From positions 1 through 55,084 of the forward strand of contig WQVH01000007.1 of NCBI GenBank assembly GCA_009781695.1: a DNA stretch of 55,084 bases, written 5' to 3'. Position 1 is the first letter of the stretch; each line of letters starts with the position of its first letter. The position numbers and the translations under genes were made by a program. Below are positions 2,169 to 9,869 of the stretch, one piece after another. The notes beneath the pieces are model-generated. The model saw nothing but the letters and a program-made list of their open reading frames with translations, was not told where the DNA came from and did no database searches. This stretch comes from Oscillospiraceae bacterium (GTDB lineage: Bacteria > Bacillota > Clostridia > Oscillospirales > Oscillospiraceae).

Positions 2169-4619
2169 ATGCACAATCAAGCACCTATTTCTGACCGCAT
2201 TGCACACATGCGAGAGCTGATCCGTGACAGAGTGGTCCGAAATGACGCAGAAAGAGCCTTGATCATGACGGAGGCGTACAAAAAACATGAGCATGTCCTC
2301 CCTGTGATTAAGAAGCCTCTGGCCATGTACGAATATTGCTCAAAAAAAGTCGTCAGAGTCGAAGACTTTGAGATAATCGTCGGAAACAGAGGGCAATATT
2401 TCCTTGGAAACACAAGCCTTGTTGAGTGGCAGGGCATCTATGAGGACAAGTACACCAACAACAAAAGCCCTGACGCATGGACGTTGGGCGGTGATGGACT
2501 CTATCACAATCCGGAAGAAGATCTGGTCAGGCTGTCCATATCTCCGGAAGATGTGGACAAGCTGCTCAGCGTAAAAGACTATTGGAAAGAAAGAACTTTG
2601 ACCCGAATTGCCGATGCTTGGCAGCCGGATGGATATGACGAACTGTGCAGACTCCATTGCACAAAAAATGTGCCGGGCTCACCACTGATCATGATGCAGT
2701 CCGGACACCTTTCACCGGGTTATAAAAAAATAATCAATACCGGCATCAGCGCCATACGAAAACAGGCGCAAGATTGGATTGAGGCAAACAATGGCAACCT
2801 CATGGGCGACAAACCCAAGAAATATATGTTTTATAAGTCCGTAGTCATCACCTGTGATGCTTTATCTCTTTTAATAAAACGCTATGGCGAAGAATGTTAC
2901 CGAAAAGCGGATGAGTGCCAAGATAACACACGCAAAAAAGAGTTACAGCAGATGGGTGATGGGCTGATTTGGATATCACAGAACCCTGCCCGAACATTCT
3001 GGGAAGCGCTCCAACTGACGATGCTGTATCAGCTTTATCTATATTCAGAAACCAGTTTCCCCGGGCCTGCGCTCGGACGTGTAGATCAGTATACCTGGCC
3101 GTTTTTAAAGGCCGATCTCGAAGCTGCACGTATAGACATGGACACAGCGCAGGAGTATATGGATGCTTTTTTCCTCAAGGCCAATTGCTACTACGCCGGA
3201 GGTACCGGCAAGCTCACAGAAACAACCGGTGTCGGCAACACATATCAGCATACCACGATCGGCGGAGTCGATCCACAAACAGGCGCAGATGCCACAAATC
3301 CGGTCACTTACATGGTGCTTGAGTCCATCAGCAGGCTGCATCTGCATGATCCGACAATCTCTTTGCGCATCAACGAAAACACCCCAACCGAACTTTGGAA
3401 CATGGCTATTGAAACCACCAAAATCTGCGGAGGGCTTCCGCTGTTCCAAAATGATGATGTGATCATTCCGGGGCTGATGCGTGAGCTTGATTTCTCACTT
3501 GAAGATGCACGTGATTACTGCATCATCGGATGCCAAGAGATTGTTGGCAGCGGAAATGATTATCCGGCGGCCAATGGAGTTTCGCCGCCATATGCTAGCG
3601 TCCATCATGGGGTGGTGTTCGATATGGCTATAAACAATGGCATCAATCCATTTAATGGCGAGCAGTGCAAAATCCAATGCGGCTATTTGTATGAGATGAC
3701 CGATATTGAGCAAGTAAAACAAGCATATAGAGATACGCTTGAATATATCTTGAAGCTCCAAGTCAGTGTAGATAATTATGTTGAATATATCATACAGCAC
3801 TATGCGCCCGAAGCGGGGCTTTCTATTTCCATGGAGGGCTGTATGGAGTCAGGAGCGGACTGCACATGGGGTGGATGTAAGTACAATTCCTATGGTGGAA
3901 CGGCTTCGGGTCTTGCGACGATTGCAGATTCACTTTCAACAATACAGTATATGGTGTTTGACAAGAAGCTCTGTACCGGAAAGGAATTGTTAGATGCGGT
4001 GCTGGCCAATTGGGAAGGTTATGAAAACTTGCGCACTCAGATACTTAATGAAGTTCCGCACTTTGGTAATGCAGACCCTTATGCCGATGAGTTTATGAAG
4101 TGGGTGTGCGATACTTATTACGATATTTGCAAAGAGTGTTATAGTGAGCGTGCCAAAGTGTACAAGGCAGGGCTTTACAGCGCAAACGACCATGTTTGTC
4201 AGGGGTATACCACATGGGCAACTCCTGATGGCAGGCGCACAGGTGAGCCGATTGCCGATGCGGCTTCTCCTGCGCAGGGGCGAGATAAAAATGGGCCGAC
4301 TGCGGTTTGTGCGTCTGCGATTTGTTATGATCATAGCAAGTTTATGGATGGTATTGCGGTTAATTTGCGTATGCATCCGACTGTTTTAAATGGGGATGGT
4401 AAGGATAAGCTCATACAGTTGACTCAGGCGTACTTCGATAGTGGTGGTCTTGAGGTGCAGTACAATATTGTCAGCAGTGAGACTATGCGTGCTGCGCAGG
4501 CTGATCCTCAGACGTATCGGGATTTGGTGGTGAGAATAGCAGGGTATTCTGCTTATTTTACAGAGCTGAGCCTCAATGCGCAAAATGATTTGATTAGCCG
4601 GACAGAAAATGGGTTGTAA
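2169..4619 (+). CDS. glycyl radical enzyme of the pyruvate formate-lyase superfamily (GCxE type), 816 aa
   Basis: Oxygen-sensitive radical enzyme. The PFL-like domain fills most of the protein and a C-terminal glycyl radical domain carries RIAGYSAYF, with the radical Gly at residue 792. The active-site loop reads CIIGCQE: thiyl Cys455 and Glu457. This GCxE signature is that of the eliminase/decarboxylase branch (diol or glycerol dehydratases, choline and isethionate lyases, arylacetate decarboxylases), not of true pyruvate formate-lyase, which has two adjacent Cys. The start is the ATG at 2169 with ACAGGAGGTATACC before it; the longer frame from 2097 has no ribosome site. No radical-SAM activating enzyme is adjacent or anywhere in the window, which is unusual. 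Substrate unknown; divergent SDRs could process a carbonyl product (inference). Confidence 0.92.
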   Translation: MHNQAPISDRIAHMRELIRDRVVRNDAERALIMTEAYKKHEHVLPVIKKPLAMYEYCSKKVVRVEDFEIIVGNRGQYFLGNTSLVEWQGIYEDKYTNNKSPDAWTLGGDGLYHNPEEDLVRLSISPEDVDKLLSVKDYWKERTLTRIADAWQPDGYDELCRLHCTKNVPGSPLIMMQSGHLSPGYKKIINTGISAIRKQAQDWIEANNGNLMGDKPKKYMFYKSVVITCDALSLLIKRYGEECYRKADECQDNTRKKELQQMGDGLIWISQNPARTFWEALQLTMLYQLYLYSETSFPGPALGRVDQYTWPFLKADLEAARIDMDTAQEYMDAFFLKANCYYAGGTGKLTETTGVGNTYQHTTIGGVDPQTGADATNPVTYMVLESISRLHLHDPTISLRINENTPTELWNMAIETTKICGGLPLFQNDDVIIPGLMRELDFSLEDARDYCIIGCQEIVGSGNDYPAANGVSPPYASVHHGVVFDMAINNGINPFNGEQCKIQCGYLYEMTDIEQVKQAYRDTLEYILKLQVSVDNYVEYIIQHYAPEAGLSISMEGCMESGADCTWGGCKYNSYGGTASGLATIADSLSTIQYMVFDKKLCTGKELLDAVLANWEGYENLRTQILNEVPHFGNADPYADEFMKWVCDTYYDICKECYSERAKVYKAGLYSANDHVCQGYTTWATPDGRRTGEPIADAASPAQGRDKNGPTAVCASAICYDHSKFMDGIAVNLRMHPTVLNGDGKDKLIQLTQAYFDSGGLEVQYNIVSSETMRAAQADPQTYRDLVVRIAGYSAYFTELSLNAQNDLISRTENGL

Positions 4620-4711
4620 GATGTCTCAGTTATATTGCAATTTATTCTTGGCAGACCAAAATAGCGACTCTACCACCATGATTCCCTACCAAGAGTCGTG
4701 CCATATCCATT

Positions 4712-5614
4712 TTATAATGCAAAGTTAATGGCAGACAAATCAACTCGAAATCCTATTTCGTTCGACCATTCAATGGGATCAATATAAAGTATGTCGATAT
4801 CTTCGGCTTCACACATACTCATAACCCTTATGCTCGGCGCTGTCAGAGTAACCGTGGCATATACTATTATAGCGTCCATTTGCTGGTTCAGTAGATTGAT
4901 GTCTGATATACTCAAATCCCGCTCAAGAAGCTGCTCAACATTATGGTGATTTACCGTAATGCCACACTCGCCAACCTCAGTGTCTACGTATATAATTACC
5001 TCGCCAAGTATCTCGTAAAGCTTATATAGATTAAAAAATTGTATTTTTCTTATCACACGAATATTAGAGCCACACTGGATATAGTCATCCCTTATGACAA
5101 ATACAAGGACACCATCAGAAACCGCCGTCAACTCTTTAAAATTAAGTGGAACACAACTTAGCGAATCCACAAGTTCTATCTCATAGAAAATCAGCCGATG
5201 CTCAGGTACTATTTTTCCATCTGAAGACAACATAAAATGCGAAGTCACCGGAACAAACCCGATCGGCCCATCTGATATAACATGTATATTCAAAGGCACA
5301 TTGTACTGACCGCGTGGCAACTCTTGCGGCCCCAATGGTGGTAGATTTTCGCCGTTCGCCCAAGGCATTCGCCATGGAATTATCGGCGCCACAATGGTGA
5401 TTGTTTTTACTTCATTTCCGTCATCTTTACATAGTCGATCAATGGACGATGTATTTTCACTTGCTCCATCATGCCCATAATGTATCACATCGGAGACTGA
5501 CATTGCAATTTCTGCATGCCCTGCACATGAAGATGTTAAACCAAGTATTAGAAAAACGACCGCCATCAAGAAATGGTATAAGTTCACCTTTCTGAACATA
5601 CTTGATATACACAC
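4712..5614 (-). CDS. secreted or lipid-anchored protein of unknown function, 300 aa
   Basis: Not recognised. A hydrophobic segment near residues 13-30 followed by LTSSCAGHAE looks like a signal sequence, possibly a lipoprotein one, though the lipobox is imperfect. The start chosen is GTG at 5614, seven bases after AAAGGAGG; a TTG at 5620 is too close to that site. The mature part has alternating hydrophobic segments typical of beta-rich exported proteins. It shares the motif ELVDSL..VP......V.DG with the next upstream protein (5822-6532), so the two are probably diverged paralogues. It may be read by leak-through of the hairpin at 5687-5724, since I see no clear promoter of its own. A weak hairpin (4665-4671 with 4692-4698) lies between it and the convergent glycyl radical enzyme. 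Confidence 0.6.
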   Translation of the reverse strand: MCISSMFRKVNLYHFLMAVVFLILGLTSSCAGHAEIAMSVSDVIHYGHDGASENTSSIDRLCKDDGNEVKTITIVAPIIPWRMPWANGENLPPLGPQELPRGQYNVPLNIHVISDGPIGFVPVTSHFMLSSDGKIVPEHRLIFYEIELVDSLSCVPLNFKELTAVSDGVLVFVIRDDYIQCGSNIRVIRKIQFFNLYKLYEILGEVIIYVDTEVGECGITVNHHNVEQLLERDLSISDINLLNQQMDAIIVYATVTLTAPSIRVMSMCEAEDIDILYIDPIEWSNEIGFRVDLSAINFAL

Positions 5615-5686
5615 ATCCAAACCTCCTTTAAGTCAGTGCAGGTGACAAAATCACGAACCCACTCAATTATTGAAGATCAGCTTCCT

Positions 5687-5724
5687 AAAAAACAAGTGTG
5701 TATCTGTTAAACTTACTTGTTTTT
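5687..5724 (-). terminator. hairpin with U-rich 3' side after the secreted protein gene
   Basis: Arms 5688-5697 and 5715-5724 are perfect 10-base complements. Read on the minus strand the second arm ends in ACTTGTTTTTT, as expected for an intrinsic terminator of the gene at 5822-6532. The loop is 17 bases, so it may be leaky and feed the gene at 4712-5614. A further 10-base complement (5642-5651 with 5758-5767) encloses it. Confidence 0.5.
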
Positions 5725-5821
5725 AGACGCCTCTCAAAACATTTTAGAAGGATGGTTATTTTGTCACACTACACAAGTCACTAGAGTCATTGTATTGCAG
5801 TACTGCTCTTAGCACAAACTC

Positions 5822-6532
5822 CTATGCAGGCCACGTGTTCGGATTCCTAATTGTGTGAACATCGAATGACATCCCTATTCCTCCACCCCTAGATCCTCCG
5901 CTAGGCAAACTCACGTTAAATGCCGATTCCACCCTTACTACACCATTTCTGAAAGAAAAGTGACGAGAACCAGCTTCCCTAAAATTACTACCAGGGACAC
6001 TGCTCCAAAAACCCATATAGTGAAGATGAGCATTAAGAATGCTCCTAGGAATTACTGTTTCTTGCCCTAGCACTTGCATCAGTACAGAACCAAGTATCGT
6101 TGCTGTGGGAAGATACCAAACACGTGCATTTCCCGAAGCAGTAAAAGGGAGGATGTTTCGATCAGTCCTGATACTATCCATAGTATATTCGTGCTCTATT
6201 TCAAAGTCAATGATATATAAGAATTCGCCATCGGTAACAACCCTTCTCTCTCCCGGACTAAAAGGAACTGCCATTAGCGAATCTACAAGCTCAACTTTGA
6301 CCGTATATTGTGATGTCATCACCTCACGTAGTGCATTCTCACTCGCTTCAAGAGCGCGTAGTTCAGATTCCTTATCCCATGGGTTAAATGGAAGCTCAAG
6401 CGTAACCGTGCGTTTTTCTTGCTCCATTGATATTTGGTCACTTTCTGTTCGGGCATATGCCTGAGTACTCACTAACCCAAAAACCATTACTAATGCCAAA
6501 CACAGAGAACAGATCTTCTTCAATTTACTCAT
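5822..6532 (-). CDS. secreted protein of unknown function under a predicted BlaI-type operator, 236 aa
   Basis: Residues 1-28 form a clear Sec signal peptide (basic start MSKLKK, hydrophobic core, cleavage after AYA). The rest is a soluble exported protein with a glycine-rich stretch near the end; no catalytic motif was seen. It shares ELVDSL..VP and V.DG with the downstream protein 4712-5614. The start is ATG at 6532 after GCGAAAGGAATT; the longer frame lacks a signal-like start. The promoter at 6651-6680 carries the same operator as the blaI-like gene, so its expression should follow that repressor. Function unknown; an envelope stress product is an inference from this regulation. Confidence 0.7.
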   Translation of the reverse strand: MSKLKKICSLCLALVMVFGLVSTQAYARTESDQISMEQEKRTVTLELPFNPWDKESELRALEASENALREVMTSQYTVKVELVDSLMAVPFSPGERRVVTDGEFLYIIDFEIEHEYTMDSIRTDRNILPFTASGNARVWYLPTATILGSVLMQVLGQETVIPRSILNAHLHYMGFWSSVPGSNFREAGSRHFSFRNGVVRVESAFNVSLPSGGSRGGGIGMSFDVHTIRNPNTWPA

Positions 6533-6650
6533 AGAACTAAATTCCTTTCGCAAATAATTTGTTATATCAAACAACTTAGTGTTATGTGCACCCAATATTA
6601 AATTGCAGGATATCTTGGCAAACATGACCAGACCATGCTTTATGCTAATT

Positions 6651-6690
6651 ATTTTACTTGAAGCATATTATTTGTGTCAACGCAAATAAT
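6651..6690 (-). promoter_or_regulatory. promoter with 24-bp palindromic operator (site A) for the secreted protein
   Basis: On the minus strand TTGACA (complement of 6675-6680) is followed by an 18-base spacer and TAAAAT (complement of 6651-6656). A near-perfect palindrome at 6667-6690, half-site ATTATTTGyGT, covers the -35 box. The same operator with 20 of 24 identical bases and the same 18-base spacing to TAAAAT lies before the blaI-like gene (8596-8635). Confidence 0.7.
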
Positions 6691-6728
6691 GTGTGTTTGC
6701 GCAATTTTGTAGTTGTCCACAAACTGCA

Positions 6729-6762
6729 CCGATCTTTATTGTGCGATTTCAACAAAGATCGG
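6729..6762 (-). terminator. 9-bp hairpin after the BlaI-BlaR1-secreted protein operon
   Basis: CCGATCTTT at 6729-6737 pairs perfectly with 6754-6762. It lies 28 bases beyond the stop of the small secreted protein gene. The T-run after the stem is weak, so termination is inferred from placement. Confidence 0.4.
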
Positions 6763-6789
6763 CATGAGTCATAATTCAAAATTGGTTTA

Positions 6790-7041
6790 TTAATTCGCTC
6801 GCATCCATTCCGTAATCCAAATTCCACGTGTGATAGAGAACAGGCGCATCTCCAAAACTCCATTATTATTTCTAAAATGCCATTGAGTTTGCTCCATGCG
6901 TTGCGAGCCGTCCATCACCGTTTCCGCATATTTCTCTAATTGACCCTCAACATTTGCATCAAACGCATGTACAGAAAGCGTAAGTGCAAAGATCATAATA
7001 AATAATAAGGCTACCGAAACTATTTTTGCTTTTTTCTTCAT
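6790..7041 (-). CDS. small secreted protein of the BlaI/BlaR1-like operon, 83 aa
   Basis: Residues 1-26 form a signal peptide (MKKKAK, hydrophobic core, cleavage near VHAF). The mature part is about 57 residues with many Glu, Gln, Trp and Arg and no Cys or known motif. Its ATG overlaps the stop of the BlaR1-like gene by four bases (ATGA type), so translation is coupled and the three genes form one operon. I do not recognise a family. It could be a ligand, inhibitor or partner for the extracellular end of the BlaR1-like protein; that is inference. Confidence 0.7.
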   Translation of the reverse strand: MKKKAKIVSVALLFIMIFALTLSVHAFDANVEGQLEKYAETVMDGSQRMEQTQWHFRNNNGVLEMRLFSITRGIWITEWMRAN

Positions 7042-8168
7042 GTTATTTCCTCCTCATAAACGATTGTTAATATGTCTCCAAATACTTCAAGCACAACTCC
7101 ATCTTCGTCTAGTTCAATCCTGTCGAGACCATCAATATGTAACCAAAATCTACCATCCGGCGCAATAACAATATGCGCATTTTCAGGACTAATGGTAAAA
7201 TAATCATAATCCGCCGGTACTTCATGCGCAGGTTGAATAGTTACGAAGTATGATGCAAAAAACAAAGCCACCACTACTACCACAGAAGCCATTCGCATCC
7301 TTTTTGACTTTAGCTCTCCACTGTTTAGGATTATCTCAATTCGCTGATCCATAAATCCGGGTTGTCCGGACTTGACCAGTGCCAAGGCATTTCCCTCAGC
7401 CACAGGCTTTTCGTGAAAAGTGTGCGTCACTACCGACGCAAGCGCCTCCAAATAGAGCGTCTTTTCTTCTTCATTCATCGTCGCCAGAAGTGCCATATCA
7501 CAGCGAATTTCAAGTAGTTTGTCAAGTTCTCTTTGGAAAGTATGCACAATTGGATTCCACCAAAACAAAACTGATAGCACAAAGTAAAACACCTTTATCA
7601 TCAGGTCATGCAATTTAAAATGTTGATATTCATGCCTCAGTATTACCTCTAAAACATCATCAGACATTTCCATATTCGGCAGGTAAATCCGAGCCTTAAA
7701 TAGCCCAGTGACAAATGGCACACCAACATCCGGAGATACAATCACCTCAGCCCATTCGAGTTGCAATTTTTCCACCATTTTCTTAACTTGCGCACTCTCA
7801 ACAAGGGCATACTTGCTCCTTTGCTCATATACTTTGCAAAGCATAATAACTGTCCGGACAAGCATTATTGCTGACCCAACACCCCACACCAAAAGTATTA
7901 CACGCTGTGTCGTAAGCATCCCGCCTGCCCATAGTGGTCTATCCAAAGCAGCCACAATCGCAGGGTAAATGCGAAACGACTGGATAACATATGTGAATGG
8001 AAAGCTCATGGGTATTACCATGCGCAACACGCCAAGTAGCGCAAGTACAACCAATGTGAGTGTGCTGTACTTTACAAGGTAATTCGTTCTGCGTCGCATA
8101 ATCGCTATAATGATTATAGATAAGTTAAATAAGATAATCGCAATAATTATCGAATATCGGCTAATCAT
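7038..8168 (-). CDS. BlaR1/MecR1-like membrane metallopeptidase (M56) without a penicillin sensor, 376 aa
   Basis: Membrane zinc peptidase that in the BlaR1/MecR1 family relays an outside signal and leads to loss of its BlaI partner. About five hydrophobic segments are visible: residues 3-20, near 40-58, near 85-110, near 190-210 flanking WWNP, and near 295-312. The zinc motif HEYQH is at residues 179-183 with a downstream RELDKLLEIRCD as in M56. Classical BlaR1 has a roughly 250-residue penicillin-binding sensor after the last segment; here only about 60 residues follow, rich in Asp, Ile and Val. The signal is therefore not expected to be a beta-lactam. Its ATG overlaps the blaI-like stop by one base (TAATG) and its stop overlaps the small secreted protein. 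Confidence 0.9.
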   Translation of the reverse strand: MISRYSIIIAIILFNLSIIIIAIMRRRTNYLVKYSTLTLVVLALLGVLRMVIPMSFPFTYVIQSFRIYPAIVAALDRPLWAGGMLTTQRVILLVWGVGSAIMLVRTVIMLCKVYEQRSKYALVESAQVKKMVEKLQLEWAEVIVSPDVGVPFVTGLFKARIYLPNMEMSDDVLEVILRHEYQHFKLHDLMIKVFYFVLSVLFWWNPIVHTFQRELDKLLEIRCDMALLATMNEEEKTLYLEALASVVTHTFHEKPVAEGNALALVKSGQPGFMDQRIEIILNSGELKSKRMRMASVVVVVALFFASYFVTIQPAHEVPADYDYFTISPENAHIVIAPDGRFWLHIDGLDRIELDEDGVVLEVFGDILTIVYEEEIT

Positions 8169-8545
8169 TACAACGCTCCTGCTCGCCTTTTCCGTATGAT
8201 CTCTTCCAACTTATCCATCGTCTCATCATCGCAGTCTGTGTCTCTGAGCAGTGCAGAGAAAATCATGGGGATTTCTGTTTCTTTGCAGTCACTAAAAACT
8301 TCGTTTCGATAGTAGTCTTCTTTGGTCATAGTTGGAATATAGGTTTGCAAGAAAAATTTCTTACCTTTCGTAAATCCTTCTTCAACAACTGCACCTTTTT
8401 TTAAGAGTCTCTTCAAAATTGTATGCAATGATGCATCCGACCATGTCTTGTCAACAGAAAGTTCAAGTATTTCGTTTGCAACAAGCGGTTTTCCCGCAGT
8501 CCAGAGCACATTCATGAATTGTAGCTCATTTTTTGTTAACTCCAT
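8168..8545 (-). CDS. BlaI/MecI/CopY-family winged-helix repressor, 125 aa
   Basis: Transcriptional repressor. The family pattern LTKNELQFMNVLWTAGKPL, then TWSDASLHTILKRLLKKGAV as the recognition wing-helix region and a C-terminal dimer segment, matches BlaI/MecI at the usual length of about 125 residues. The start is ATG at 8545 after AAGGGGTGATAAAG; a GTG at 8554 would sit inside that site. It is the first gene of the operon with the BlaR1-like peptidase. The palindrome over its own promoter (8612-8635), repeated before the secreted gene at 5822-6532, is the obvious candidate binding site. Confidence 0.92.
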   Translation of the reverse strand: MELTKNELQFMNVLWTAGKPLVANEILELSVDKTWSDASLHTILKRLLKKGAVVEEGFTKGKKFFLQTYIPTMTKEDYYRNEVFSDCKETEIPMIFSALLRDTDCDDETMDKLEEIIRKRRAGAL

Positions 8546-8595
8546 CTTTATCACCCCTTCATTCTTCGCACTAATTTTTACATCTCACACCACAC

Positions 8596-8635
8596 ATTTT
8601 AACACACACGCATTACTTGCGTCAATGCAATTAAT
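8596..8635 (-). promoter_or_regulatory. promoter with 24-bp palindromic operator (site B) for the blaI-like operon
   Basis: On the minus strand TTGACG (complement of 8620-8625), an 18-base spacer and TAAAAT (complement of 8596-8601) form the promoter. The palindrome 8612-8635 covers the -35 box; on the plus strand its left half reads ATTACTTGCGTC, and it matches site A (6667-6690) at 20 of 24 bases. Autoregulation is inferred. Confidence 0.7.
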
Positions 8636-8659
8636 GCAAAAAAGATTTTTGCATTAATT
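8629..8659. repeat. 14-bp perfect inverted repeat next to the blaI-like operator
   Basis: Arms 8629-8642 and 8646-8659 (AATTAATGCAAAAA and its complement) are separated by three bases and share the TTAATGCA core with the operator they overlap. It may be an extra repressor site, or part of a terminator for the LytTR gene ending at 8733. Confidence 0.5.
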
Positions 8660-8732
8660 AAGCAGAAATATTGAGCTACAAAAAACCAAAGAGAATAACG
8701 CCATTGCAAAGTCTTTAATACGTCTCAAATGA

Positions 8733-9536
8733 TTAACCAATCTCCTCCAGTAACAGCGCAGATTTGGTCTTACGTATCGGAACAAGGGCATTTTCGGAAT
8801 GCAGTAACTTGGCTTTTAGTCCATTGATGCTACGCACTGCAATGGGCGCAGCTTCACCGGTAATCATTTCGAGCACTTTGTTTGTTTTATCCAAGCGGGC
8901 GATATTTCTGATATTTACAATGCAGGATTGATGACATCTATAAAAGTCCGGGCCGATATCTTCAATTTCGCCTATGGTACAGCGGAATTCTACTTGACTG
9001 CTCTTCATGTGTACAATCATTTTATTCCGGGCTGTGGGATGCGTCCTGAAAAAGAGTATATCATCGATCAGAACATTCCACACTTCACCCTTTGCCTCAA
9101 TACTGAAATATTTGAGTTTAGAATGCTTTTCATCCAAATGGCGTTTATATGCCACCGTGAGGCATTCTATCATGCTTTTTTCCAGACTGAGTTGCATCCC
9201 TTTGACAATGTAATCAAGCGCTTCTATTTTGTATTTAAAGATGAGGCCTACAGGATCTCTGTGCGAGGTAACGAATACGATTTTTGCATTGACATCACTG
9301 TTGCGGATCAGAGCCGCCAATTCAATGCCATTAATGTCGTGCTGCAACTCTACGTCGATAAAATAGAGCGCACCTTTTTCTGTGCGTTCATTCAAGCGAC
9401 GCACAACCTCTATCGGGTTGCCGGTCGATAATGCGAGTTTGATATGAAGACCTTCAGCACAGATAAATTTCCTGACAATTTCCTCAAGATGCACTCGGTG
9501 GGTCGGGTTATCATCGCAAATAACCACGTGAAGCAT
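8733..9536 (-). CDS. LytTR-type response regulator (AgrA/ComE class), 267 aa
   Basis: Two-part DNA-binding regulator. A receiver domain (residues 1-125) has the acidic pair D8-D9, phospho-acceptor D61 in FIDVEL and a Lys in YIVKG. A LytTR DNA-binding domain (about 150-250) has the typical DILFFRT and FYRCHQSCIVNI stretches. The start is ATG at 9536 behind ATCGGAGGAACTGAAT. No histidine kinase or peptide gene was found next to it, so it is an orphan here. Family members control peptide signalling, bacteriocins or virulence genes. The gene-less region upstream carries a strong promoter pointing away (9870-9898), a layout that recalls agr-type loci with a divergent RNA, although no such link can be shown. 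Confidence 0.9.
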   Translation of the reverse strand: MLHVVICDDNPTHRVHLEEIVRKFICAEGLHIKLALSTGNPIEVVRRLNERTEKGALYFIDVELQHDINGIELAALIRNSDVNAKIVFVTSHRDPVGLIFKYKIEALDYIVKGMQLSLEKSMIECLTVAYKRHLDEKHSKLKYFSIEAKGEVWNVLIDDILFFRTHPTARNKMIVHMKSSQVEFRCTIGEIEDIGPDFYRCHQSCIVNIRNIARLDKTNKVLEMITGEAAPIAVRSINGLKAKLLHSENALVPIRKTKSALLLEEIG

Positions 9537-9869
9537 ATTCAGTTCCTCCGATTTCAAAATTTCGCTACAGTCTTTATAGAATATGTCGATGATTTCCATC
9601 AACTATTATCTTAAGCTAACAGCAGTCGAACGCCAACTTAACGACAGTGCTCTAGCGGCACTTCGTAATCTCTGCCACACCTGCATATTAAATATTACCA
9701 AAAATTTGGCTCCAGAACGCAAAAACTTCCCAATAGGCCAATAAAACGCCCTGAAAGGGCAGAAATGGCAATTTCGTAAGGGATTCCGTGACGTTCTTGC
9801 GTGCAAATACACATCTTTGTCTATTTTGCTGATTTGTTCAGCACTTTGTACATATTGCATAAAATCCGA
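9537..9869. other. intergenic stretch upstream of the LytTR gene
   Basis: No convincing gene here. An open frame of 103 codons on the minus strand has no ribosome site and an Arg/Cys/Trp-rich composition unlike neighbouring proteins. A small hairpin GCCCTGAAAGGGC lies near 9748-9760. The LytTR promoter is probably within the left part. Confidence 0.5.

Follow-up and report, generated by a model that had tools for sequence, protein, structure and literature searches.

Matching operator-like sites probably tie a BlaI-like repressor operon to a secreted-protein gene in an Oscillospiraceae bacterium

Two Matching Operator-Like Sites

The window analyzed here is the whole 55,084-nucleotide (nt) stretch of contig WQVH01000007.1 of an Oscillospiraceae bacterium, and all coordinates are positions within it. 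On its reverse strand it carries a blaI-like operon, encoding a BlaI/MecI-like repressor, an M56 (BlaR1-like) membrane metalloprotease and a small secreted peptide of 83 amino acids (aa; P83), and the gene for a secreted protein of unknown function (S267). We consider it likely that the BlaI-like protein represses both its own operon and S267 via two matching operators, and that the two units would be released jointly once M56 is triggered. The locus is probably a real, small and lineage-specific BlaI regulon.

Site 1 (6667..6690, reverse strand, ATTATTTGTGTCAACGCAAATAAT) is an operator-like near-palindrome over the -35 box of the S267 gene, while site 2 (8612..8635, reverse strand, ATTACTTGCGTCAATGCAATTAAT) occupies the same place over the -35 box of the blaI-like operon. 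They are identical in 20 of 24 bases and combine into ATTAwTTGCrTTGACrCAArTAAT. The corresponding promoters, TTGACA-18-TAAAAT for S267 (6651..6680, reverse strand; 11/12, the best of 18 matches) and TTGACG-18-TAAAAT for the operon (8596..8625, reverse strand; 10/12), were recovered by a promoter scan of positions 4400-9800. As the total of 18 matches is near the chance mean of 15.3, promoters of the form TTGAC.-18-TAAAAT prove nothing alone. An initial annotation of the window had described this arrangement, and both the sequence and the scan confirm its coordinates, the shared bases, the TTGACA and TTGACG boxes at 18 nt from TAAAAT, and the placement of one site before the blaI-like operon and of the other before a secreted-protein gene. 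Its description of the sites as palindromes holds in so far as they are near-palindromic, with complementary pairs at 10/12 positions in site 1 and 9/12 in site 2; among the 55,061 24-mers of the window, four have at least 10 such pairs and 25 at least nine. Its remark that the operator differs from the classical TACA/TGTA sequence is also correct, neither 24-mer containing either element, and the GTCTAT inverted-repeat motif is absent from both sites as well.

The pair is unique in its genome (2.2 Mb, 106 contigs), where no further copy of site 1 or site 2 was found at two or fewer mismatches. A degenerate operator pattern at up to three mismatches matched both sites and one 3-mismatch stray on another contig (C95), and a looser 22-mer pattern added one stray on C5, with one match for the reversed control. 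Because the patterns were built from both sites, these searches show uniqueness only. The top match to either site was 19/24 among 80 comparisons with 40 Markov shuffles of the window.

Paired Promoters at Other BlaI Loci

Recurrence of such pairs was assessed at 32 BlaI loci (31 loci of relatives and the first 20 kb of the window), 27 of which had a usable blaI promoter. The 46-nt blaI promoter of each locus was compared with its own locus outside that promoter, against a null of 702 cross-locus comparisons (99th percentile 14.2, maximum 16.6) that includes matches to the -35 consensus. The loci dropped were L040, where the contig starts just before blaI, L046, where the -35 box is too near the contig end, and L085, L086 and L095, where the promoter score was below threshold. 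A second copy above the 99th percentile of the null was found in five of the 27 loci, the window included, with about 0.3 expected; the own-locus scores were 22.2 (G004), 21.6 (G082), 20.0 (G018), 16.2 (window) and 14.4 (G011). The score of G011 corresponds to 0.85% of the null. That of the window appears convincing, and it is not extreme on its own because one of the 702 null values is as high (0.14%). With an earlier null that included orthologous blaI promoters, the 99th percentile was 21.0 and the window score exceeded all 29 cross values for its query. A comparison of regions upstream of called open reading frames (ORFs) had overlooked sites with long leaders, had returned terminator-like hairpins and, in G025, one palindrome common to blaI and a divergent gene, and was replaced by the whole-locus tests.

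Concerning the individual pairs, the second copy of G004 is downstream of M56, like that of the window, has the same TTGAC.-18-TAAAAT form and precedes the gene for a protein of 455 aa whose FliD_C match is below threshold; the pair has exactly two occurrences in its genome at three or fewer mismatches, 1.75 kb apart. In G011, the gene that the second copy faces is divergent and encodes an 83-aa secreted peptide; no exact motif match besides these two sites occurs in the genome, and two more have one mismatch. G082 has a distant BlaI (28% identical), and its second copy precedes the gene for a lipoprotein-like secreted protein. Joint change of a local repressor and its operators would best account for pairs that are alike within a genome and different between genomes.

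At E ≤ 1e-5, 42 of 149 genomes had a BlaI match; for the 400 family genomes, searched at E ≤ 1e-12, the count was 25, and both figures include the window genome. The 34 stretches compared comprise the best BlaI matches plus three without a BlaI match, tblastn giving a BlaI match in 31. The nearest BlaI found (G003) is 51% identical, and its promoter differs and contains no more than one look-alike half-site; an 11-mer in that promoter (ATTATTTGTGT), resembling one half-site without its partner arm, was not counted. A common ACTTGAAT-type sequence lies over the blaI -35 box in the clade of G040, G193, G163 and G246, and AGTTGACT is common at the same position to the clade of G011, G018, G010 and G004 (two loci). 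With up to one mismatch allowed, the clade motif AGTTGACTBGANTYG was found in 14 of the 19 genomes of the genus, in many cases close to the level of the control, and therefore only exact matches were used. Strays of the window operator at three mismatches occur in 4 of 18 other genus genomes, with matches of the reversed control in two.

Some further loci deserve mention. At L045 (G018), the M56 gene is truncated, and upstream of blaI a tiny signal-peptide-like frame is flanked by a perfect inverted repeat of 20-21 nt. In L050 (G025), a blaI-like gene and a divergent 283-aa ORF have one long near-perfect palindrome between them, so one operator could serve both. A weak reverse-oriented look-alike before the gene for a 703-aa secreted protein in L046 (G010) was not counted, and a Bacteroidales contig with one weak match to BlaI, over query residues 99-121, was not used.

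The blaI-M56-P83 Operon

The BlaI/MecI-like repressor (8168..8545, reverse strand) belongs to the Penicillinase_R winged-helix family (PF03965, E = 3.3e-14; 53.6 bits against a cut-off of 22.6), the match covering the whole protein (residues 6-121), and it also matches the solved BlaI and MecI N-domains 1p6r and 1okr. Its start was set at the ATG at 8545 (MELTKNEL), behind AAGGGGTG, by alignment with relatives, the ORF extending to a GTG at 8554. The top NCBIfam match is CopY_TcrY, at 51.6 bits against a cut-off of 121.95, and the CXC metal motif is absent from the translated protein. As in BlaI/MecI repressors, the gene is paired with that of an M56 protease.

The M56 protein (7038..8168, reverse strand; PF05569, E = 2.9e-29) is 376 aa long, with the HExxH protease core HEYQH inside the PF05569 match and a short C-terminal tail. 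NCBIfam blaR1_generic aligned to it over positions 103-331 of 585 only (78.9 bits against a cut-off of 400), and the matches with the solved BlaR1 structures 8exs and 8exp are confined to residues 167-304 and 167-298, respectively. A penicillin-binding domain was not found in it, M56 being the only Pfam match at E ≤ 0.001 and the blaR1_generic match being partial and below cut-off; the sequence therefore argues against a beta-lactam system. Its single-sequence structure model has a mean pLDDT (predicted local distance difference test) of 40.4.

P83 (6790..7041, reverse strand) was recognized as an ORF, by its family alignment A1 and by the adjacency to M56 in relatives, and ends in the motif W(Y/H)xR..NGV.E.RL(W/F)S.T.G.W(L/I)T(D/E)W. 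The operon is tight, with overlaps of 1 nt between BlaI and M56 and of 4 nt between M56 and P83. Between P83 and site 1 lies a strong RNA hairpin (6728..6763, reverse strand; fold of 6700-6790 with z = -4.8, 0/200 shuffles as stable), which has no T-run after it and is likely the end of the blaI operon transcript. The P83 gene and the missing penicillin-binding sensor are points beyond the initial annotation.

Directly upstream of the operon lies the gene for an AgrA-like LytTR response regulator (8733-9602; NCBIfam AgrA, 153.7 bits against a cut-off of 400). A second BlaI is encoded elsewhere in the genome (L001, on C9 at about 14.3 kb). Its promoter is covered by a GTCTA-type palindrome, ACCACAGTCTATAAGTGCTAGACTGTGGT, which is unlike the window operator; the two BlaIs of the genome may therefore read different operators.

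Proposed Mechanism and Alternatives

In the proposed mechanism, the BlaI-like protein would occupy near-identical operators covering both -35 boxes and so repress the blaI-M56-P83 operon (site 2) and S267 (site 1). Comparative anatomy supports this arrangement, from which we infer the binding itself. By analogy with BlaR1/BlaI (PMC3305447), an M56 metalloprotease triggered from outside would inactivate BlaI, and the sensor operon and the secreted S267 would then be released together. As M56 has no penicillin-binding domain, the trigger would not be a beta-lactam bound to such a domain; we infer a signal that probably involves P83 and/or the short M56 ectodomain and, on the same footing, the role of S267. 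Tentatively, BlaI, a short M56 and a P83-type peptide might together form an envelope sensor that is peptide-based and has no connection with beta-lactams. M56 would read as its signal the peptide itself, or its extracellular capture or cleavage, as suggested by the natural M56-peptide fusion in G003, and lineages would add secreted outputs of their own by copying the operator, so that operators and outputs turn over while the switch stays. We regard this wider picture as possible and somewhat doubtful.

Several results weigh against joint control of the two units by BlaI. No second copy above the 99th percentile of the null was seen in 22 of the 27 loci, so a second site is not general, and the 27 loci are not independent (three come from G004, two from G404, and the BlaI proteins of L041 and L080 are near-identical) and differ in length. 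In G018, the pair forms an inverted repeat at the locus with the truncated M56 and has no clear target gene. Both window sites are imperfect as palindromes. In an alternative 24-mer frame, beginning 8 nt ahead of the first base of the blaI -35 box and ending 16 nt beyond it, the second copy matches at 18/24, and the maximum in 20 shuffles of the 20-kb stretch in that frame is 18/24 too. S267 has no full counterpart in 148 other genomes and its regulation is therefore uncheckable by orthology. Finally, the window operator does not occur upstream of blaI in the relatives' stretches. The initial annotation had looked to the half-site ATTAyTTGyGT upstream of homologues, a prediction that fails, as none of the 18 other genus genomes has the operator at two or fewer mismatches; conservation of the palindrome upstream of orthologues, which it had set beforehand as the test of its claim, was not found even within the genus. 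Its link of one repressor to two operators draws indirect support from the recurrence of same-kind pairs at a minority of BlaI loci and none from the operator sequence, which is unconserved in orthologues. It thus seems to have been right on the link, as far as anatomy tells, and wrong on the mode of conservation.

Both sites could instead be read by another transcription factor co-regulating the two units, with BlaI using an unnoticed site of its own. The indirect case for BlaI binding leaves room for this, as do the second BlaI on C9 with its own GTCTA-type palindrome and the LytTR regulator next to the operon. However, two sites that are the only ones in the genome at two or fewer mismatches, and that flank blaI-M56-P83, are unlike the targets of a distant regulator, and within-genome pairing elsewhere follows blaI. 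LytTR proteins bind direct repeats, and of the 34 stretches the LytTR query matched just L045, at about 6.6 kb from blaI, and L052 weakly; on balance we think such a factor unlikely. Equally, the S267 promoter might have been copied from the blaI promoter without shared regulation, so that the likeness would reflect ancestry, or it might reflect AT-rich chance plus the -35 consensus. The G004 similarity spans 58 nt, past the operator, as duplication would give, and -35 boxes inflate matches, shuffles reaching the window score in one framing. In the window, however, the local match is of 25 nt over the operator, with the -10 box in addition, and the spacer is mostly different, a pattern suggestive of selection on the operator, and the cross-locus null already contains the -35 consensus matches, so we judge duplication without shared control to be quite improbable. 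Action of BlaI on its own operon only, with site 1 weakly bound or decaying, would agree with the majority of loci that have no second site and with BlaI_1845 of Clostridium thermocellum, whose regulon is its own operon only (PMC8457756). Yet site 1 is the better palindrome of the two and has the better -35 box (TTGACA), and we give this reading very little credence.

BlaI/M56 pairs carry the label of penicillin-resistance regulators. For control by BlaI as proposed above, the label would be misleading at the window locus and its relatives, where a conserved secreted peptide and a secreted output stand in place of a penicillin-binding sensor and of any resistance gene recognized among the targets. 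If the paired-operator rule holds, some BlaI operators could be read from genomes via a nearby second copy of the blaI promoter, even if their sequence is new, and the M56-linked peptide is a concrete candidate for what such sensors detect.

Comparison with Known Systems

The closest characterized case found is the regulon of BlaI_0696 of Clostridium thermocellum, with sites at its own operon and at two further units, one of them a hypothetical gene (PMC8457756). In the window, matching putative operators are found at the promoter of the own operon and at that of a separate unit. The likeness would extend to a small regulon comprising the own operon with BlaR1 genes and separate units and to autoregulation, and inverted repeats are present in both cases (PMC8457756). 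The BlaI_0696 operator is described there as GTCTAT inverted repeats 5 nt apart (PMC8457756), unlike the combined operator of the window, and the window also differs in that its putative second target is adjacent and secreted and its operon carries P83. The BlaI_0696 promoters are reported to have two motif matches each (PMC8457756), a layout that the extra inverted repeats lying upstream of the operator at both window promoters may echo. One of these is CGCAAA-N9-TTTGCG at 6681..6701, recorded by the scan as a terminator-like stem on the forward strand, whose left arm is common to site 1 and which is a possible extra half-site beside it. The other is a 14-bp inverted repeat (AATTAATGCAAAAA / TTTTTGCATTAATT) at 8629-8659, overlapping the outer arm of site 2. 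It is modestly stable as RNA, 9/200 shuffles of its 116-nt stretch folding equally well, and could either form the end of the LytTR transcript upstream or serve as a second site for the repressor.

The staphylococcal and Bacillus bla and mec divergons (PMC3305447) resemble the window locus in having a repressor, a membrane BlaR1-type protein and operators, putative ones in the window, before both the regulator operon and the output gene. Unlike them, the window locus has no penicillin-binding sensor, no recognizable beta-lactamase or penicillin-binding protein (PBP) target and no TACA/TGTA operator. The same source describes a peptidoglycan-fragment coactivator as an alternative to BlaI cleavage in BlaR1/BlaI (PMC3305447). 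The CopY/CopR copper repressors belong to the same repressor family as the window BlaI (PMC7253601); in contrast to them, the window BlaI has no CXC motif, the operator RNYKACANNTGTMRNY is absent, and the partner is a protease, not a copper exporter.

The P83 Peptide Family and Its Link to M56

The C-terminal consensus of the P83 family, from alignments A1 and A2, is WYxRxxNGVxExRLWSxTxGxWLTDW. A tblastn match to P83 was found at 10 of the 31 BlaI loci of relatives, and L046 has one more by eye; M56 loci such as L042 have no P83 match, so the peptide is not obligatory. The A1 and A2 searches scored the first 14 or 19 candidates per genome, and their counts are lower bounds. With A1, at least 31 of 400 family genomes match, at least 13 of them over the C-terminal part, and all 13 C-terminal matches listed adjoin an M56 gene or, in G003, fall inside M56. 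Ten of the 13 genomes had supplied rows of A1, so that G225, G186 and G003 are independent. The other 18 A1 matches listed end at or before profile position 60 and look like signal-peptide matches. The A2 search of 391 genomes of the class gave at least seven matches in at least four genomes outside the family; among the seven listed, six follow closely on an HExxH-encoding M56 gene (families f52 and f97) and the seventh has an internal stop, with no M56 within the 1.5 kb fetched. In at least three families, some short M56 genes thus have a member of the peptide family next to them. In G003 (L039), the M56 protein itself ends in the P83 motif, within a single open frame, a fusion which suggests joint action of peptide and protease outside the membrane. 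No description of an M56-linked secreted peptide family or of the window operator was recognized among the titles and abstract starts listed by searches of open-access literature. Peptide-family loci after short M56 genes are L039, L041, L044, L046, L047, L079, L082, L084, L088 and L091, and further ones are L093, L143, L144, L167-L169 and L171-L173.

S267 and the Exported-Looking S302

S267 (5822..6532, reverse strand) has a signal peptide and likely starts at MSKLKK, the ORF extending to 6625. It has no match in Pfam (E ≤ 0.001), NCBIfam or PHROG (E ≤ 0.1), and its single-sequence structure model has a mean pLDDT of 37.7. The 148 other genomes gave two weak partial matches (E = 3e-4; residues 30-90 and 31-83), both of which include the signal peptide. 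A second exported-looking protein, S302 (4712..5620, reverse strand), is the product of the next gene and had no match in the same genomes and no Pfam family at E ≤ 0.001, and its gene has no operator copy of its own. Neither S267 nor S302, the two genes tested, has a beta-lactamase or PBP2a-like Pfam match (E ≤ 0.001). S302 is the sole recognized relative of S267, with which it shares a 30-aa stretch, ELVDSL..VP...E...V.DG, at 13/30 identical residues (E = 6e-5 for that single pairwise comparison).

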